A DNA stretch of 48,650 bases from a bacterium (GTDB taxonomy: Bacteria > Patescibacteriota > Andersenbacteria > UBA10190). The notes below the pieces were generated by a model, which had not been told where the DNA came from, ran no database searches, and saw nothing but the letters and a program-made list of their open reading frames with translations. The DNA lies in the NCBI GenBank assembly GCA_027624555.1, contig JAQBWN010000004.1, positions 1 through 48,650 of the forward strand, read 5' to 3'. Shown in pieces: positions 30,517 through 42,302 of this stretch. The position numbers and the translations under genes are program-made. Within the stretch, counting starts at the first letter, position 1. Every line of letters starts with the position of its first letter.

Positions 30517-32373
30517 TTATTCTTCTCTATACAGCGCGTAATTTCCGTATTTAGTTACTAGTTCCCACGTAGGGCGGATTATAAGCCCTGGGACCAGGGC
30601 GTGTTCTTGAGGGCCTACAAAAATATATTTTGGTTTCATGTTTGCAACCGTATTTCCTGTTCCTGCAAAATAATCTTTTATATCTTGTTCCCTGTCCCAT
30701 GGCAGGCCTCCATGGCTCCAAATATGTGCGGCATACCCTAAGAAAATAGTTCTTCCTGCTAATACTATGGGTGAATTGTGCCCAGGGGCAGTAAGTATGG
30801 GTATTGAAGCCGGAACTAAAGCTTTTATATTTTTTGCTATAACAATTCCTTCTGTATCCCACTCTTGCCATGCACGTGCTGTTGGCATTGCCAATTTATA
30901 TACATCGAGGAAACCCGCAAAAATATGAATATATAGTAGTGCAAAGACTGTTATTCGAAGTATTGCTGAATGATGTTTTTTGATAATAGTACTAAAGCAC
31001 CAGGACACTATTGGAAGAATAAAAATAAACCAAAATACAAATAATTTAAAATTGTCCCATGCCCAGGGTGCGAACAAGAACGTGTTTGCAAGTATAAATA
31101 AAAACGTACCGGCAAGCGCAATTGCTTTGGCTGGTTTTGGGGCATGTAAAAACAATCCAGTAATACTTATTGGGATAAAAGCACCGGTGTTTTGGATCCA
31201 GTAGAGAATAATGTTTTTATCACCGGCCATCCAATATGGACTAAAGCGGAAAAAGGATCCAGACGCCGCACTCCCCTTTGCGTAGAACATAAGTTCTGGT
31301 ATTCCAAGCGCTAATGCGGGAATAAAGAATTGCACCCAAAGTTTTTTTACAGGGTATGTAATTATCATTGCAATTACGGCTGTTGCAAGCGCAATGCATG
31401 CGTGCGCATGAAATAATGGAAGCATCCCTGCCAGTACCCCCGCAAGTATAGCTGCATGTTTTTTTTTCATGTTTTTTGGATGTAGCAAGATAATAACGGA
31501 TAGTACCAGCGGTATGCCAAAAAGCATGGCTCTCTGGGGAAGCAAAAGTGTTGTTACAGGGTTTAAAAAGTGAAATCCTTTTTGGCTTGTTCCTACTCCG
31601 GAATAGTCTTCTGCAGGAAGTTCTAATAAAAAATCTAAAATCGGAACTGGTGTATTTGCAATATCTTGAAAAAATTGTATCCAGCCGAATGTTGCGCCAC
31701 CAAATAAAAACAATAAGCATGCAATTACGCCAGCAATTTTTGACCCATTATACTGTTTTGCAAATATATAGACGAGGACAAGAATGATCGGAATAAGTAA
31801 AATTGCGGGTACGTTTACGCTTGCCGTAAGAGAAGATCCTAGCACTAACATGGACGCACTCACTAAATTTGCAAGAAAAGGGTAGGTAAGAGCCTCTCCT
31901 GCGAATATGGGGTTTTCTATAGGAAGAGATGCTTGCCCGGCAACCCCAGTAATAATTGCGCCATGCCATCCTATGTCTCCATACGCGTTAATAATTCCTG
32001 TATATATGCCGTCGGGGCGTTCTATGAGTAATTTGCCGCCAATTATTAAGAAAAGAATAAGTGATGCGCTAAGTATACTAAGAGCAACTGCGTCTGTTTT
32101 TTTTGCATTAATTTTTTTCCAGTCAATTTTGAGTGTATGCGCTATCGCGATGGCGACAAAAACTGCAAGAGTGAACAGAGCGCTTATACTGCTTATCGGA
32201 ATAATATGTGCAAGAGCATAGGAAAAAGTTCCGTATACGGATAGCCCCAATATACTTCCAATGCTGATGATGGTAATTTTTTCTTGAAAAATGTTTAGTT
32301 TTAGTAGCACTGCTATTCCTGCTACTGAAGGAATAAAGAGCACCGTTGCGGCAATGAAATATTCGTATATCAT
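30517..32373 (-). CDS. Polytopic membrane protein, GT-C glycosyltransferase-like
   Basis: A 618-aa protein with about 13-15 hydrophobic helices. The segment RPDGIYTGIINAYGDIGWHGAIITGVAGQASLPIENPIFAGEALTYPFLANLVSAS resembles the first large loop of GT-C fold transferases, where acidic residues bind a lipid-linked sugar. The C terminus is a soluble tail (IWSHGGLPWDREQDIKDYFAGTGNTVANMKPKYIFVGPQEH). The neighbouring deoxysugar genes fit a role in surface glycan assembly. I cannot name the family with certainty. The start is placed at ATG 32373 (MIYEYFIAATVLF); the track start would overlap the divergent MBL gene. CATATA lies 4 nt upstream, a weak box. Confidence 0.65.
   Translation of the reverse strand: MIYEYFIAATVLFIPSVAGIAVLLKLNIFQEKITIISIGSILGLSVYGTFSYALAHIIPISSISALFTLAVFVAIAIAHTLKIDWKKINAKKTDAVALSILSASLILFLIIGGKLLIERPDGIYTGIINAYGDIGWHGAIITGVAGQASLPIENPIFAGEALTYPFLANLVSASMLVLGSSLTASVNVPAILLIPIILVLVYIFAKQYNGSKIAGVIACLLFLFGGATFGWIQFFQDIANTPVPILDFLLELPAEDYSGVGTSQKGFHFLNPVTTLLLPQRAMLFGIPLVLSVIILLHPKNMKKKHAAILAGVLAGMLPLFHAHACIALATAVIAMIITYPVKKLWVQFFIPALALGIPELMFYAKGSAASGSFFRFSPYWMAGDKNIILYWIQNTGAFIPISITGLFLHAPKPAKAIALAGTFLFILANTFLFAPWAWDNFKLFVFWFIFILPIVSWCFSTIIKKHHSAILRITVFALLYIHIFAGFLDVYKLAMPTARAWQEWDTEGIVIAKNIKALVPASIPILTAPGHNSPIVLAGRTIFLGYAAHIWSHGGLPWDREQDIKDYFAGTGNTVANMKPKYIFVGPQEHALVPGLIIRPTWELVTKYGNYALYREE
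32368..32373 (+). promoter_or_regulatory. -10 box TATCAT, 7 nt before beta-CASP gene ATG
   Basis: TATCAT-N7-ATG with TTGCGG 16 nt before it. The box overlaps the first codon of the divergent membrane protein gene. Confidence 0.55.
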
Positions 32374-32380
32374 AACGTAT

Positions 32381-33790
32381 ATGGGCAGTATAACCTTTTT
32401 TGGCGGAGCTGGGAGCGTGACCGGCAGTAAGTATCTGGTATCCATTGCTGGGAAAAAAATACTTTTAGATTGCGGTACGTTTCAGGGGCTTTCGGACGCG
32501 AGGTCTCGTAACAGGCAATTTTCTTTTTCTCCTACTGATGTTGATGCTGTGGTGTTATCTCATGCGCATCTTGATCATTGTGGAATGTTGCCACTTCTCG
32601 TAAAGAAGGGATTTAGGGGCAGTATTTTTTCTACACTCGCAACAAAAGCAGTCGCGACTTATATTTTACATGATTCTGCAGGCATAGAAGAGCAGGATGT
32701 TGCATATAAAAGAAAACACAATATCGGTACGCAAGACGAACAGGAACCTTTGTTTACCATTGAAGATGTAGCCGCAACGATGAAGCGTTTTGTTCCGATA
32801 CCGTATGCGCGCAATATTGCGCAGGGGTGGACCGAAATTCTTTCTGGTATTTCAGTGAAATTGTACGATGCTGGGCATATTCTTGGTTCTTCTATTACCG
32901 TATTGCGGTATGAAGAGGCAGGAGAGGTACGCCACGTTGCCTACACGGGAGACGTAGGCCCCATAGGCGTCCCTATGTTGCATGACCCTGAAATTCCTAG
33001 AGAAAATATTCATACGCTTCTTATGGAAAGCACGTACGGAAAAAGAAAACATCTGCCTATAGAATTAGCAGAAGAGCGGTTGGCTACGGCTATACACTCC
33101 GTCTGCAAACGTGGTGGCATTATGGTGGTGCCGGCATTCTCGCTTGGCCGAACACAAATGTTGGTCTACACTATCCATAAATTATTAGATGAGGGACGTA
33201 TTCCGCACTTCCCCATTTTTGTAGATTCGCCACTGGCTACAGATATTACAAATATTTATAAAAGTTATACGCAGGAGTATGACGAAGAAACGAGGATTGA
33301 TTTTACAAATGAAGGTAAATTGCCACTCACGTTTTCTAGTCTTAAATATATTCAATCTGCCGAAGAATCAAAAAAACTCAATGGTATGGAAGGGCCGTTT
33401 ATGATTATATCCGCATCTGGAATGATGACTGCAGGTAGGGTAGTTCATCATTTGCGCAATACGATTTCAAATAAAAATAACGCAGTATTCATTACGGGGT
33501 ACCAGGCAATAGGTACAACGGGGAGAAAAATATTGGAGGGGGCAAAGCAAGTAGAATTACATGGCAGAGTAATCCCAGTTCGAGCGGAAATATTGCTGTT
33601 TAACGAGTTTTCGGCGCACGCAGATGGCGGGCAGCTTACCGACTTTGCATCAAACATTGAAGGGCTTACTACGATTGCTCTTGTGCATGGTGAAGATAAA
33701 GAGGTTCAAGCGCTTCAGAAAAGATTGCAGGAAAAAACCTCTGAGTGGAATGTCGTTATTCCGAACGAAGGAGATTCTATTTCCATTTAG
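32381..33790 (+). CDS. MBL-fold beta-CASP ribonuclease (CPSF/Ysh1-like)
   Basis: A 469-aa RNA-processing metallo-beta-lactamase. Motif 2 SHAHLDHCGMLPLL supplies the zinc ligands (HxHxDH). DAGHILGSSITVL and YTGDVG provide motifs 3 and 4, and the beta-CASP region has LMESTYGKRKH, FVDSPLATDITNIYKSY, IISASGMMTAGRVVHHL and FSAHADGGQL. It has no N-terminal KH extension. In archaea and many bacteria such enzymes act as mRNA endo- or 5'-exonucleases. A 5'-end-dependent nuclease would be relevant in an organism whose mRNAs seem leaderless, but that link is speculation. Start 32381 (MGSITFFGGAGSVTGSKYL) is set by TATCAT-N7. Confidence 0.9.
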   Translation: MGSITFFGGAGSVTGSKYLVSIAGKKILLDCGTFQGLSDARSRNRQFSFSPTDVDAVVLSHAHLDHCGMLPLLVKKGFRGSIFSTLATKAVATYILHDSAGIEEQDVAYKRKHNIGTQDEQEPLFTIEDVAATMKRFVPIPYARNIAQGWTEILSGISVKLYDAGHILGSSITVLRYEEAGEVRHVAYTGDVGPIGVPMLHDPEIPRENIHTLLMESTYGKRKHLPIELAEERLATAIHSVCKRGGIMVVPAFSLGRTQMLVYTIHKLLDEGRIPHFPIFVDSPLATDITNIYKSYTQEYDEETRIDFTNEGKLPLTFSSLKYIQSAEESKKLNGMEGPFMIISASGMMTAGRVVHHLRNTISNKNNAVFITGYQAIGTTGRKILEGAKQVELHGRVIPVRAEILLFNEFSAHADGGQLTDFASNIEGLTTIALVHGEDKEVQALQKRLQEKTSEWNVVIPNEGDSISI

Positions 33791-39674: not shown

Positions 39675-40141
39675 AGCCCAAGTATGCTCGCTTTTATCTT
39701 AATTACAACTTTTCGCACTTCCTGATGAATGCCGTTTTGGACCTTTGGCATATGGAGTTCTTTTGGGAAAAATATAGCAAAAGAATGTACGTTGAGCGAG
39801 CACAGGCTTTGATTTGCAGTTGGAAAAAACAGTTGATAGTCCATATCTTTGTTAAGCTCTTTTTCTACTAAGTTTCCTATTGGCGCATATGCCACTATCT
39901 CTCCACCGCTCAAACAGTAGTGAATGTCAATATATTCTTCGTGTACTTCGTAAAAGGCATGGTTAAAAGGCATGGTTTTTACGGACTGAATATTTGCATA
40001 GACGTCGCGGTTTTGTATAGCATGTTCGCCGTCTGGTAATAGGTTTGCATTCTCTTGAATCCAGCTAAATGCCGTTTCCCAAACTGGGTGTGGTAAAAAA
40101 GCCTTATATGTGTGCGGCTCATTATATTGACCATGTAACAT
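39671..40141 (-). CDS. YhcH/YjgK/YiaL (NanQ-like) family protein
   Basis: A 156-aa cupin-like protein of the YhcH family; E. coli YhcH (NanQ) is known as an anomerase for sialic acid. The family pattern is visible: NRDVYANIQSVKTMPF, EVHEEYIDIHYCLSGGEIVAYAP with metal-binding His/Glu, and the DYQLFFPTANQSLCSLNVHSFAIFFPKELHMPKVQNG end with its HMP. First gene of a YhcH-AKR-SDR operon, divergent from the CMP-sugar synthase gene only 22 nt away. TACACT lies exactly 6 nt before ATG and TTGATT 16 nt before that. Confidence 0.85.
   Translation of the reverse strand: MLHGQYNEPHTYKAFLPHPVWETAFSWIQENANLLPDGEHAIQNRDVYANIQSVKTMPFNHAFYEVHEEYIDIHYCLSGGEIVAYAPIGNLVEKELNKDMDYQLFFPTANQSLCSLNVHSFAIFFPKELHMPKVQNGIHQEVRKVVIKIKASILGL
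39681..39686 (-). promoter_or_regulatory. -10 box CATACT, 6 nt before AKR ATG
   Basis: TTGTAA-N16-CATACT-N6-ATG on the minus strand, inside the end of the YhcH-like gene. Confidence 0.45.
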
Positions 40142-40147
40142 GGTTGT

Positions 40148-40157
40148 AGTGTATCAT
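40148..40157. promoter_or_regulatory. Overlapping divergent -10 boxes
   Basis: Minus strand TACACT (40148-40153) is 6 nt from the YhcH-like ATG. Plus strand TATCAT (40152-40157) is 6 nt from the CMP-sugar synthase ATG. The boxes overlap by 2 bp, so both polymerases cannot bind at once. Confidence 0.65.
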
Positions 40158-40163
40158 GGGGAA

Positions 40164-40958
40164 ATGAGCAATCAACCAAACCCTAAAAGAACCCCAGTGA
40201 ACGTAGTAGCTATAATTCCGGCCCGAGCAGGGCAGCAAAGTATTCCGTACAAAAATTTGCAAAAATTGGGCGACAAAACATTACTTCAGTGGGCGATAGA
40301 AGTAGCCTTTGCAGCGGATTCTATCGATGCTGTAATTGTTTCAACTGAAGATGAAAAAATAAAAGAAGAGGCAGAAAAACTAGGGGCGCTTGTTGCGCCT
40401 CGTCCAAAAGAATATGCTTTAGCCACAAGCGGTGACGCTGGATTTTATCAACATGCGGTGAAGTGGATGGAAGAAGCACACGGATGGACGCCAGAATTTT
40501 TGATCAACTTGCGACCAACCAGCCCTCTTCGATTTGCAAAAGATATTGACCGTATGGTTGAACACATAAAGAGTTCAGGAGCGGATGGATTAAAGAGCGT
40601 GGTGCCTTCCCCGCTACATCCGTACAAAATGTGGCAAATACAAGGATCAACTGATATTGGATCTTCGGGAAAGTTGTTGCCGATTTTTGATAACGAATTT
40701 CGACAAACCCACGGGCCAGACCAGCCACGGCAAAAAATACAACAGATGTTCCCGGTGTTCTTTCAAGATGGGCAGGTTGATATTACTCGAAGAAAGTTTG
40801 TATTGCGTCCAGAGGCATTGGAGTTAGAAAACGTATGGGGTGAAAATCTCCATGGGTTTATTTTAGACCCAAGAACAAGCACTGATTTGGACGAGCCCGC
40901 AGACTTTTTGAGAGCAGAAAAAATATACCGCGATTTGGAGGAAGAACGAGGGGAGTAG
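40164..40958 (+). CDS. Acylneuraminate (nonulosonate) cytidylyltransferase
   Basis: Activates a nonulosonic acid with CTP. The 264-aa protein starts MSNQPNPKRTPVNVVAIIPARAGQQSIPYKNLQKLGDKTLL, where ARAGQQSIPYKN corresponds to the CTP-binding RxGSKGIPxKN. It has DAVIVSTEDEKI, LINLRPTSPLR (the family LLQPTSPLR) and a late RTSTDLDEPADF (metal-binding Asp). ATG 40164 is chosen over 40140 because TATCAT lies exactly 6 nt upstream and the extension overlaps the divergent gene. With the NeuB-fusion gene it gives synthesis and activation of a sialic-acid-like sugar. Confidence 0.88.
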   Translation: MSNQPNPKRTPVNVVAIIPARAGQQSIPYKNLQKLGDKTLLQWAIEVAFAADSIDAVIVSTEDEKIKEEAEKLGALVAPRPKEYALATSGDAGFYQHAVKWMEEAHGWTPEFLINLRPTSPLRFAKDIDRMVEHIKSSGADGLKSVVPSPLHPYKMWQIQGSTDIGSSGKLLPIFDNEFRQTHGPDQPRQKIQQMFPVFFQDGQVDITRRKFVLRPEALELENVWGENLHGFILDPRTSTDLDEPADFLRAEKIYRDLEEERGE

Positions 40959-41088: not shown

Positions 41089-41409
41089 CTACTTCAGCTC
41101 GTCCTGTAGTTTTTTTAAGCCTTCGGGGCCTTGTTTTGCGGCATCTTCTACCTTTGTGCGCATTCCTTCAGGTAAACGTGACATAATACCTTGCATTAAG
41201 TCTTCTGCGCTTACAGATGTTTTCCCTTTTTTGCGTGCATATTCTTCTGCCGCTTGTTCTAGTTCTCGCTTTACTCGCTGTTTCATAATTCCTGGTACCG
41301 GAGCTTGCCCTACTGCTTGTGCGAGTGCCTTGGTCGCAGAATCGTCCCAGGTAAGAGAACTTGCCTCTTCGCTTTGATTACTTGATTTTTTTTGCCAGAA
41401 TGAAAACAT
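41089..41409 (-). CDS. PCP_red-type domain protein (106 aa)
   Basis: A small protein whose middle (SLTWDDSATKALAQAVGQAPVPGIMKQRVKRELEQAAEEYARKKGKTSVSAEDLMQ) resembles the PCP_red domain, a helical module found at the end of light-independent protochlorophyllide reductase subunit B and in stand-alone proteins. The tail GMRTKVEDAAKQGPEGLKKLQDELK is helical and charged. No photosynthesis genes are nearby, so a DNA- or cofactor-binding role is open. Start 41409 (MFSFWQKK) has TATACT exactly 6 nt upstream; the track start is 12 codons too early. Its ATG overlaps the divergent gene ATG in CATG. Confidence 0.65.
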   Translation of the reverse strand: MFSFWQKKSSNQSEEASSLTWDDSATKALAQAVGQAPVPGIMKQRVKRELEQAAEEYARKKGKTSVSAEDLMQGIMSRLPEGMRTKVEDAAKQGPEGLKKLQDELK

Positions 41410-41421
41410 GGAAGAAGTATA
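41396..41421. promoter_or_regulatory. Divergent leaderless start site: CAGAAT-N6-CATG-N6-AGTATA
   Basis: Plus: CAGAAT (41396-41401), 6 nt, ATG 41408. Minus: TATACT (41421-41416), 6 nt, ATG 41409. The two start codons share the CATG palindrome, and each promoter lies inside the other gene. Minus has TTGCTA 18 nt before its -10; the plus -10 is weaker. Confidence 0.6.
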
Positions 41422-42103
41422 TACCGTAGCAATAAGGCGTAGCAAGCGTGCAAAGAGAATGTCTATCCGTATAAGCGAAGCCGGTATTGTTGAGCTCGTA
41501 TTACCGCTAAGGGCAAGTGAACGAGCCGGGAACGCGTTTATTAAAATTCGTCATGAATGGATTAGCCGTGCGCTTGATACGCAGAAGCAGAGGAACGCAA
41601 TGCAGAAACCTGTTATATGTGAAGACAAGGCAAGTATTCCCTGCTTTGGAGATATGCTGAAACTATCTATTGTATGTGAGCCTGGCAGGAGCCGTGCATC
41701 TGTTATTCTTCGTGGTTTTACGCTGAGTGTATATGTTGCAACTTTTGCGGACGCACAAAAAGCTTTAAGCAAATGGTATAGGCGCGAAGCAATGGCATAT
41801 TGCACGGGACAAGTGCAGGAATATGCAGACGTGCTTAACGTTACTGTTTCCGCAGTTCGTGCTATTGGCATGAAAAGCCAATGGGGAAGTTGTAACTCAA
41901 TTAAAAAGTCACTGACATTTAATTGGAAGTTGGCGCTGGCTCCTGAAGAAGTGGCTCGGTACGTCATAGCTCATGAAGTGGCACACTTGGTACAGGCGAA
42001 TCATTCCAAAGCATTTTGGGATGTGGTAAAAAAACTGGACCCAGACTATATGGCTCATCGAACATGGTTGAAAGTATACGGCGGCGGGTTGTACATACAG
42101 TAA
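41408..42103 (+). CDS. YgjP-like (DUF45/M48-type) zinc metallopeptidase
   Basis: A 231-aa protein of the YgjP family. It has the zinc motif VIAHEVAHLVQANHSKAFWDVV (HExxH plus a downstream His), preceded by the diagnostic GMKSQWGSCNSIKKSLTFNWKLALAP and an RRSKRAKRMSIRIS start. The family is known in many bacteria, and its substrates are unclear; a link to restriction or DNA-linked proteolysis has been suggested for some members. The ATG shares CATG with the divergent gene. Confidence 0.88.
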   Translation: MEEVYTVAIRRSKRAKRMSIRISEAGIVELVLPLRASERAGNAFIKIRHEWISRALDTQKQRNAMQKPVICEDKASIPCFGDMLKLSIVCEPGRSRASVILRGFTLSVYVATFADAQKALSKWYRREAMAYCTGQVQEYADVLNVTVSAVRAIGMKSQWGSCNSIKKSLTFNWKLALAPEEVARYVIAHEVAHLVQANHSKAFWDVVKKLDPDYMAHRTWLKVYGGGLYIQ

Positions 42104-42161: not shown

Positions 42162-42287
42162 CTATATTGTTCCTTCTGTAGTTTCTGCTGGAGTATCTGT
42201 GCTTGGTGCCGCTGCGCATGCTGCGCATAGACCAGCTTCATTTACTTCAGCGTTTTCTGCTGAACATCCTGTGCATGTTGCCATCAT
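42162..42287 (-). CDS. 41-aa double-CxxC protein with perfect Shine-Dalgarno (not in ORF track)
   Basis: The minus strand from ATG 42287 reads MMATCTGCSAENAEVNEAGL then CAACAAAPSTDTPAETTEGTI and TAG. CTGC and CAAC are a four-cysteine zinc or iron site; the acidic Ala/Thr-rich tail is probably unstructured. The ATG is preceded 8 nt upstream by AAGGAGGTGATT, a full complement to the 16S rRNA 3' end and the strongest ribosome site in the window. ATG 42284 is an alternative start. Coding by this unit is strongly implied by that site. Function unknown; a small, highly made metal-binding protein. Confidence 0.75.
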   Translation of the reverse strand: MMATCTGCSAENAEVNEAGLCAACAAAPSTDTPAETTEGTI

Positions 42288-42295
42288 AGTAATCA

Positions 42296-42302
42296 CCTCC
42301 TT
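42296..42302 (-). promoter_or_regulatory. Perfect Shine-Dalgarno AAGGAGG for the 41-aa CxxC gene
   Basis: Sequence TAAGGAGGTGATTACTATG on the minus strand; it decides the start of a gene otherwise too short to call. Confidence 0.85.

Follow-up and report, generated by a model that had tools for sequence, protein, structure and literature searches.

A CATG shared by the start codons of two divergent genes in a leaderless-rich bacterial genome

Two divergent genes in the 48,650-nucleotide stretch of DNA analysed here (the window) begin within a single CATG, so that their start codons overlap by 2 bp. The genes encode a YgjP-like zinc metallopeptidase and a small PCP_red-like protein. It is likely, from comparison with related genomes, that they form a conserved divergent pair in a leaderless-rich genome, and that the distance between their starts has shrunk below zero in this species alone. 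The overlap is real, mildly unusual and largely explained by known parts, and it has the look of a recent, isolated contraction and not of a new means of gene control.

The shared CATG and its promoters

A direct read of the window gave CAGAATGAAAACATGGAAGAAGTATA at 41396-41421. The minus ATG occupies 41409-41407 and the plus ATG 41408-41410, and each of the two candidate -10 hexamers, TATACT (minus, 41421-41416) and CAGAAT (plus), ends 6 nt before its own ATG, within the coding region of the partner gene (Table 1). This read confirmed the geometry described in the earlier note, namely the two ATGs overlapping in CATG and the placement of both hexamers. The genes constitute a divergent overlapping pair, with 5' coding ends sharing 2 bp and each start supported by homologues.

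Table 1. Features of the start region and of other loci mentioned in the text (window coordinates unless a contig is named)
Feature	Position	Strand	Details
PCP_red-like small protein, 106 aa plus stop, begins MFSFW	41089..41409	-	PF08369 E=1.8e-7; six relatives 46-70% identical
YgjP-like zinc metallopeptidase, 231 aa, HEVAH motif	41408..42103	+	PF01863 E=3.7e-49; relatives 35-47% identical
CATG palindrome, both ATG start codons	41407..41410	.	2-bp overlap; both starts homologue-supported
TATACT, -10 box of minus gene	41416..41421	-	hexamer score 5.67; 6-nt spacer to minus ATG
CAGAAT, candidate weak -10 of plus gene	41396..41401	+	TGC just before (41393-41395); within minus Ser-Phe-Trp codons
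TACCGT, TANNNT match adjoining minus -10	41422..41427	+	matters only if YgjP starts at 41459
TGA stop in YgjP frame	41375..41377	+	no ATG/GTG/TTG from there to 41408
beta-CASP MBL RNase / 618-aa protein, start region	32371-32383; L145:6825-6830 in G004	divergent	
Small Cys-rich protein, ~43 aa, two CxxC	~42165-42300	-	L082 ~1319-1452

We examined start regions in a 634-kb sample of stretches from this genome (G000). TANNNT peaked 12 nt before the first ATG, where 78 of 510 genes carried it compared with 11.6 for the background, and Shine-Dalgarno (SD) 4-mers were rare, with at most 9 of 510 genes at any position; the 16S anti-SD is intact, its 3' end carrying ATCACCTCCTTT. A TANNNT about 12 bp before the start is the mark of leaderless (TA-led) bacterial genes (Zheng et al. 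2011, PMC3160421), and the genome, judged by these start regions, is leaderless-rich. The hexamer was commoner in genes with a divergent neighbour (54/110) than in the others (112/421).

Neither ATG of the pair is preceded by an SD. The minus gene carries TATACT at -12, which matches exactly both the TA-led genes and the genome-wide peak; its hexamer score was reached by 0.13% of all ATGs in the sample, and a two-class start model gave a leaderless probability of 1.00 for this gene and 0.51 for the plus gene. Equivalents of the box are found in relatives: TATGCT in G003, CATGCT in G004, TATGAT in G005 and, one base further away, TACACT in G002. Initiation of a leaderless minus mRNA from TATACT is thus well supported as a prediction.

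In contrast, the plus hexamer at -12, CAGAAT, lacks the first T and falls outside the TA-led class. Its score (-0.18) was reached by 7.2% of ATGs and by 7.7% of all hexamers. A TG at -15/-14 agrees with the extended -10 of the trained model and raised the score of the whole -20..-1 region to the top 1.7% of ATGs. However, the same codons read CAAAAT in G003, where YgjP starts at another place, suggesting that CAGAAT is explained by the Phe-Trp coding of the minus gene. The proposal that both mRNAs are leaderless therefore holds well for the minus gene, while the box on the plus side is weak and accounted for by protein coding. Most likely, the plus gene has a weak promoter within the minus coding region, with CAGAAT and sites further back as candidates.

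A position further back would keep the overlap and give the YgjP mRNA a leader. CATAAT at 41284, for example, outscores CAGAAT among the upstream hexamers (1.94 vs -0.18) and would produce an antisense leader of about 110 nt. We consider a deeper promoter of this kind possible but unlikely, as CATAAT is far from the gene, such matches are common by chance, and the missing SD before 41408 fits poorly with a leadered mRNA in a genome that rarely uses SD sequences in any case.

Homologue support for the two starts

The match of the minus protein to PF08369 scored 31.5 bits, under the curated cut-off of 32.5, and we therefore call the protein only PCP_red-like. The PCP_red-like N-termini of relatives are in register (MFSFW, MFNIW, MFSLF, MLSFF, MFKLF and MYKFW). 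A TTG at 41445 was ruled out as the start because the relatives begin with Met followed by Phe, Leu or Tyr. The minus start at 41409 is probably real; the earlier note had held that homologues starting clearly elsewhere would speak against the overlap, and for this protein MFSFW stands in register with its relatives.

The plus protein is a YgjP-like metallopeptidase, scoring 168 bits against the PF01863 cut-off of 26 and carrying the HExxH motif as HEVAH. Ten codons separate the upstream stop in its frame from 41408, and a start further upstream was rejected, as these contain no in-frame ATG, GTG or TTG. The next Met downstream is residue 18 (41459), and a start there would lose residues 1-17, while relatives conserve residues within 5-17. 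The plus start at 41408, on this comparison, is probably real. Since the plus frame offers no start upstream of 41408, residues near the YgjP N-terminus are conserved and the minus MFSFW is in register, both starts are probably as the earlier note placed them.

A start at Met18 would leave the genes without overlap and would retain the bidirectional layout of the relatives, with expression from a shared -10 region in which the plus TACCGT, itself a fit to TANNNT, lies beside the minus TATACT. The Pfam match, which begins only at residue 16, agrees with this reading. Even so, we regard it as very unlikely, because it discards the R-x-S-x-R-A-R block, in which R10 and A15 are invariant among six aligned family members, because the alignments of more than half of 80 distant homologues, drawn from many phyla, already begin at or before residue 14, and because no SD precedes 41459.

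The gene pair in relatives and the origin of the overlap

Thirteen genomes were found in the class. YgjP and PCP_red-like genes are divergent neighbours in G000, G003, G004, G005, G007 and G009, with start-to-start gaps of -2 bp here, 23 bp in both G003 and G004, 17 bp in G005, 122 bp in G009 and about 179 bp in G007, the last taken from match coordinates. The start overlap is specific to this species among the genomes examined. The earlier note counted separation of the genes in relatives as a refutation; the separation we observed refutes conservation, and the existence of the overlap stands.

In G003, G004 and G005, a symmetric -10 shared by the two genes lies between the starts, so that their boxes overlap. 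From one start codon to the other, the sequence is CAT ATGTATAGCATAGGGAGTATTGT ATG in G003 and CAT GTGGCTATCATACAGAG ATG in G005, and the minus -10 (TATGCT and TATGAT, respectively) shares bases with the plus -10 (TAGCAT and TATCAT), which suggests transcription start sites (TSSs) 18 bp apart. In E. coli bidirectional promoters with a symmetric shared -10, TSSs are reported to lie 18 bp apart most often (Warman et al. 2026, PMC12825309, which cites the authors' 2021 paper). G005 fits this class, with starts 18 bp apart over TATCATA; in G003, a 6-nt leader on the YgjP mRNA would place the TSSs 18 bp apart over TAGCATA. The CATG pair in the window differs from this arrangement: its -10 boxes are separate, 14 nt apart, each beyond the start of the other gene, and the expected TSSs overlap. 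It lacks the one symmetric -10, shared or overlapping, that a bidirectional promoter has between TSSs commonly spaced by 10, 18 or 23 bp.

CATG at the PCP_red-like start is also present in G002, G004 and G005, so sharing need not be the reason for its origin. In G002, PCP_red lacks a neighbouring YgjP gene, yet CATGG is still found at this start, indicating that the CATG belongs to the minus start and needs no plus gene. Where YgjP is missing in G002 (L111:1529-1600), we observed a terminator-like hairpin (AAAAAACCCAC...GTGGGTTTTTT).

By manual count, the minus start and the invariant R10 codon of YgjP are 26 bp apart here, compared with about 66 bp in G003, 66 bp in G004 and 78 bp in G005. 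The interval is thus about 40-50 bp shorter than in relatives, and the YgjP N-terminus is shorter by about 5 or more residues. We infer that the region contracted by about 40 bp or more, with the plus frame remaining open as far as the minus start. The deletion would have taken away the old plus start, and the frame would have fallen in register with an ATG already lying opposite the minus start; as a CAT with a G behind it also reads as ATG on the opposite strand, a plus start would have been supplied for free. The minus gene would then be transcribed from TATACT as a leaderless mRNA, and the plus gene from the weak extended -10 (TGC CAGAAT) inside the minus gene or with a longer antisense leader. 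By geometry, the RNA polymerase footprints of the two promoters would overlap, probably making them mutually exclusive at any instant. YgjP identity to the closest relatives is only 44-47%, and the DNA alignment is too diverged to place the breakpoints of the putative deletion. The direction of change, shrinkage here and not growth elsewhere, is suggested by the mutual agreement of the relatives. An assembly error at the junction may also be the source of the overlap.

It is highly improbable that the shared CATG is a selected device by which two interleaved leaderless promoters allow only one of the peptidase and PCP_red-like genes to be transcribed at a time. Such a device would suit the 6-nt spacer of both hexamers, the TG before the plus start and the constant position of the minus -10 in relatives, but the arrangement is conserved in no relative found and CAGAAT has a chance-like score under Phe-Trp coding constraint. 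We are also doubtful of a general rule for reduced leaderless-rich genomes, by which the palindromic start of one gene would serve as a ready-made start for a divergent neighbour and interleaved promoters would make the two units mutually exclusive around a single base pair.

Known overlaps and other close divergent starts

The opinion that this arrangement has no common precedent was too strong. Short divergent overlaps form a rare but recognised class: 457 divergent (5'-5') overlaps make up about 1% of well-characterised prokaryotic overlaps (PMC2478687), and the CATG pair resembles them in that its genes lie on opposite strands and overlap at their 5' ends. In the same study, all 75 of the 75 long annotated divergent overlaps examined were mis-called starts; in contrast, the overlap here is 2 bp, with both starts homologue-supported. 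One way in which such overlaps are described to arise is that a gene adopts a new start within its neighbour (PMC2716372), and divergent overlaps are reported as commonest in archaea, with Caulobacter as an exception among bacteria (PMC2174442). Leaderless TANNNT genes and bidirectional promoters are likewise established. A literature search for CATG shared by divergent starts found nothing.

Close divergent starts recur in this genus. In the G000 sample, starts were less than 60 bp apart in 25 of 55 divergent pairs, 12 of these 25 at 15-30 bp; one start overlap in 55 pairs is, by our rough estimate, about what chance could give in a compact genome. A second pair provides a closer precedent. 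The beta-CASP MBL RNase (plus start 32381) and its 618-aa neighbour (minus start 32373) are separated by 7, 7, 6 and 0 bp in four species, and a TATACT is retained inside the first codons of the RNase in all four. In G004 (L145:6827/6828), the two starts abut as CATATG, and both TATACT boxes lie at exactly -12, each inside the other gene. The two hexamers of the CATG pair are placed likewise. The G004 pair differs from the CATG pair in its gap of 0 instead of -2, its two strong boxes and its narrow range (0-7 bp) across the four species. The 618-aa protein is without a Pfam match and looks like a membrane protein.

Three further candidates were rejected. At 40140-40164 in the window, a YhcH/YjgK-like gene (minus) and a cytidylyltransferase gene (plus) are divergent, and their first ATGs form a CATG at 40140/40141; a plus start at 40164 is more likely, this position having TATCAT at -12 and a start region similar in G002 and G004. 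In this pair, the minus TACACT overlaps the plus TATCAT in TAGTGTATCATGGGG, as it does in G002 and G004. The CATG at L164:18054/18055 of G004 is doubtful and was not counted, as it lacks both a -10 at position -12 and a homologue in the sampled G000 stretches. The pair at L128 14738/14758 probably reflects a start mis-call, given a gap of 23 in its G004 counterpart.

Leaderless initiation removes the lower limit on the spacing of divergent genes, since starts with no leader or SD can abut or overlap. The natural series of gaps in one gene pair, from 179 through 122, 23, 23 and 17 to -2, with 0-7 bp in the second pair, would allow the effect of interleaved promoters to be measured.

A T directly before ATG (TATG) was found at about 65% of first-ATG starts in G000, a nearly SD-less genome, and at 61% in G004. 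An initiator T/A, or pairing of U(-1) with A37 of the initiator tRNA, may account for this bias. Both the -1 T bias and the CATATG pair hold more promise as leads than the CATG overlap. Finally, the gene for the small Cys-rich protein has a near-perfect SD (AAGGAGGTGATT) upstream in this otherwise SD-poor genome, and the same was seen in G002, G003 and G004.
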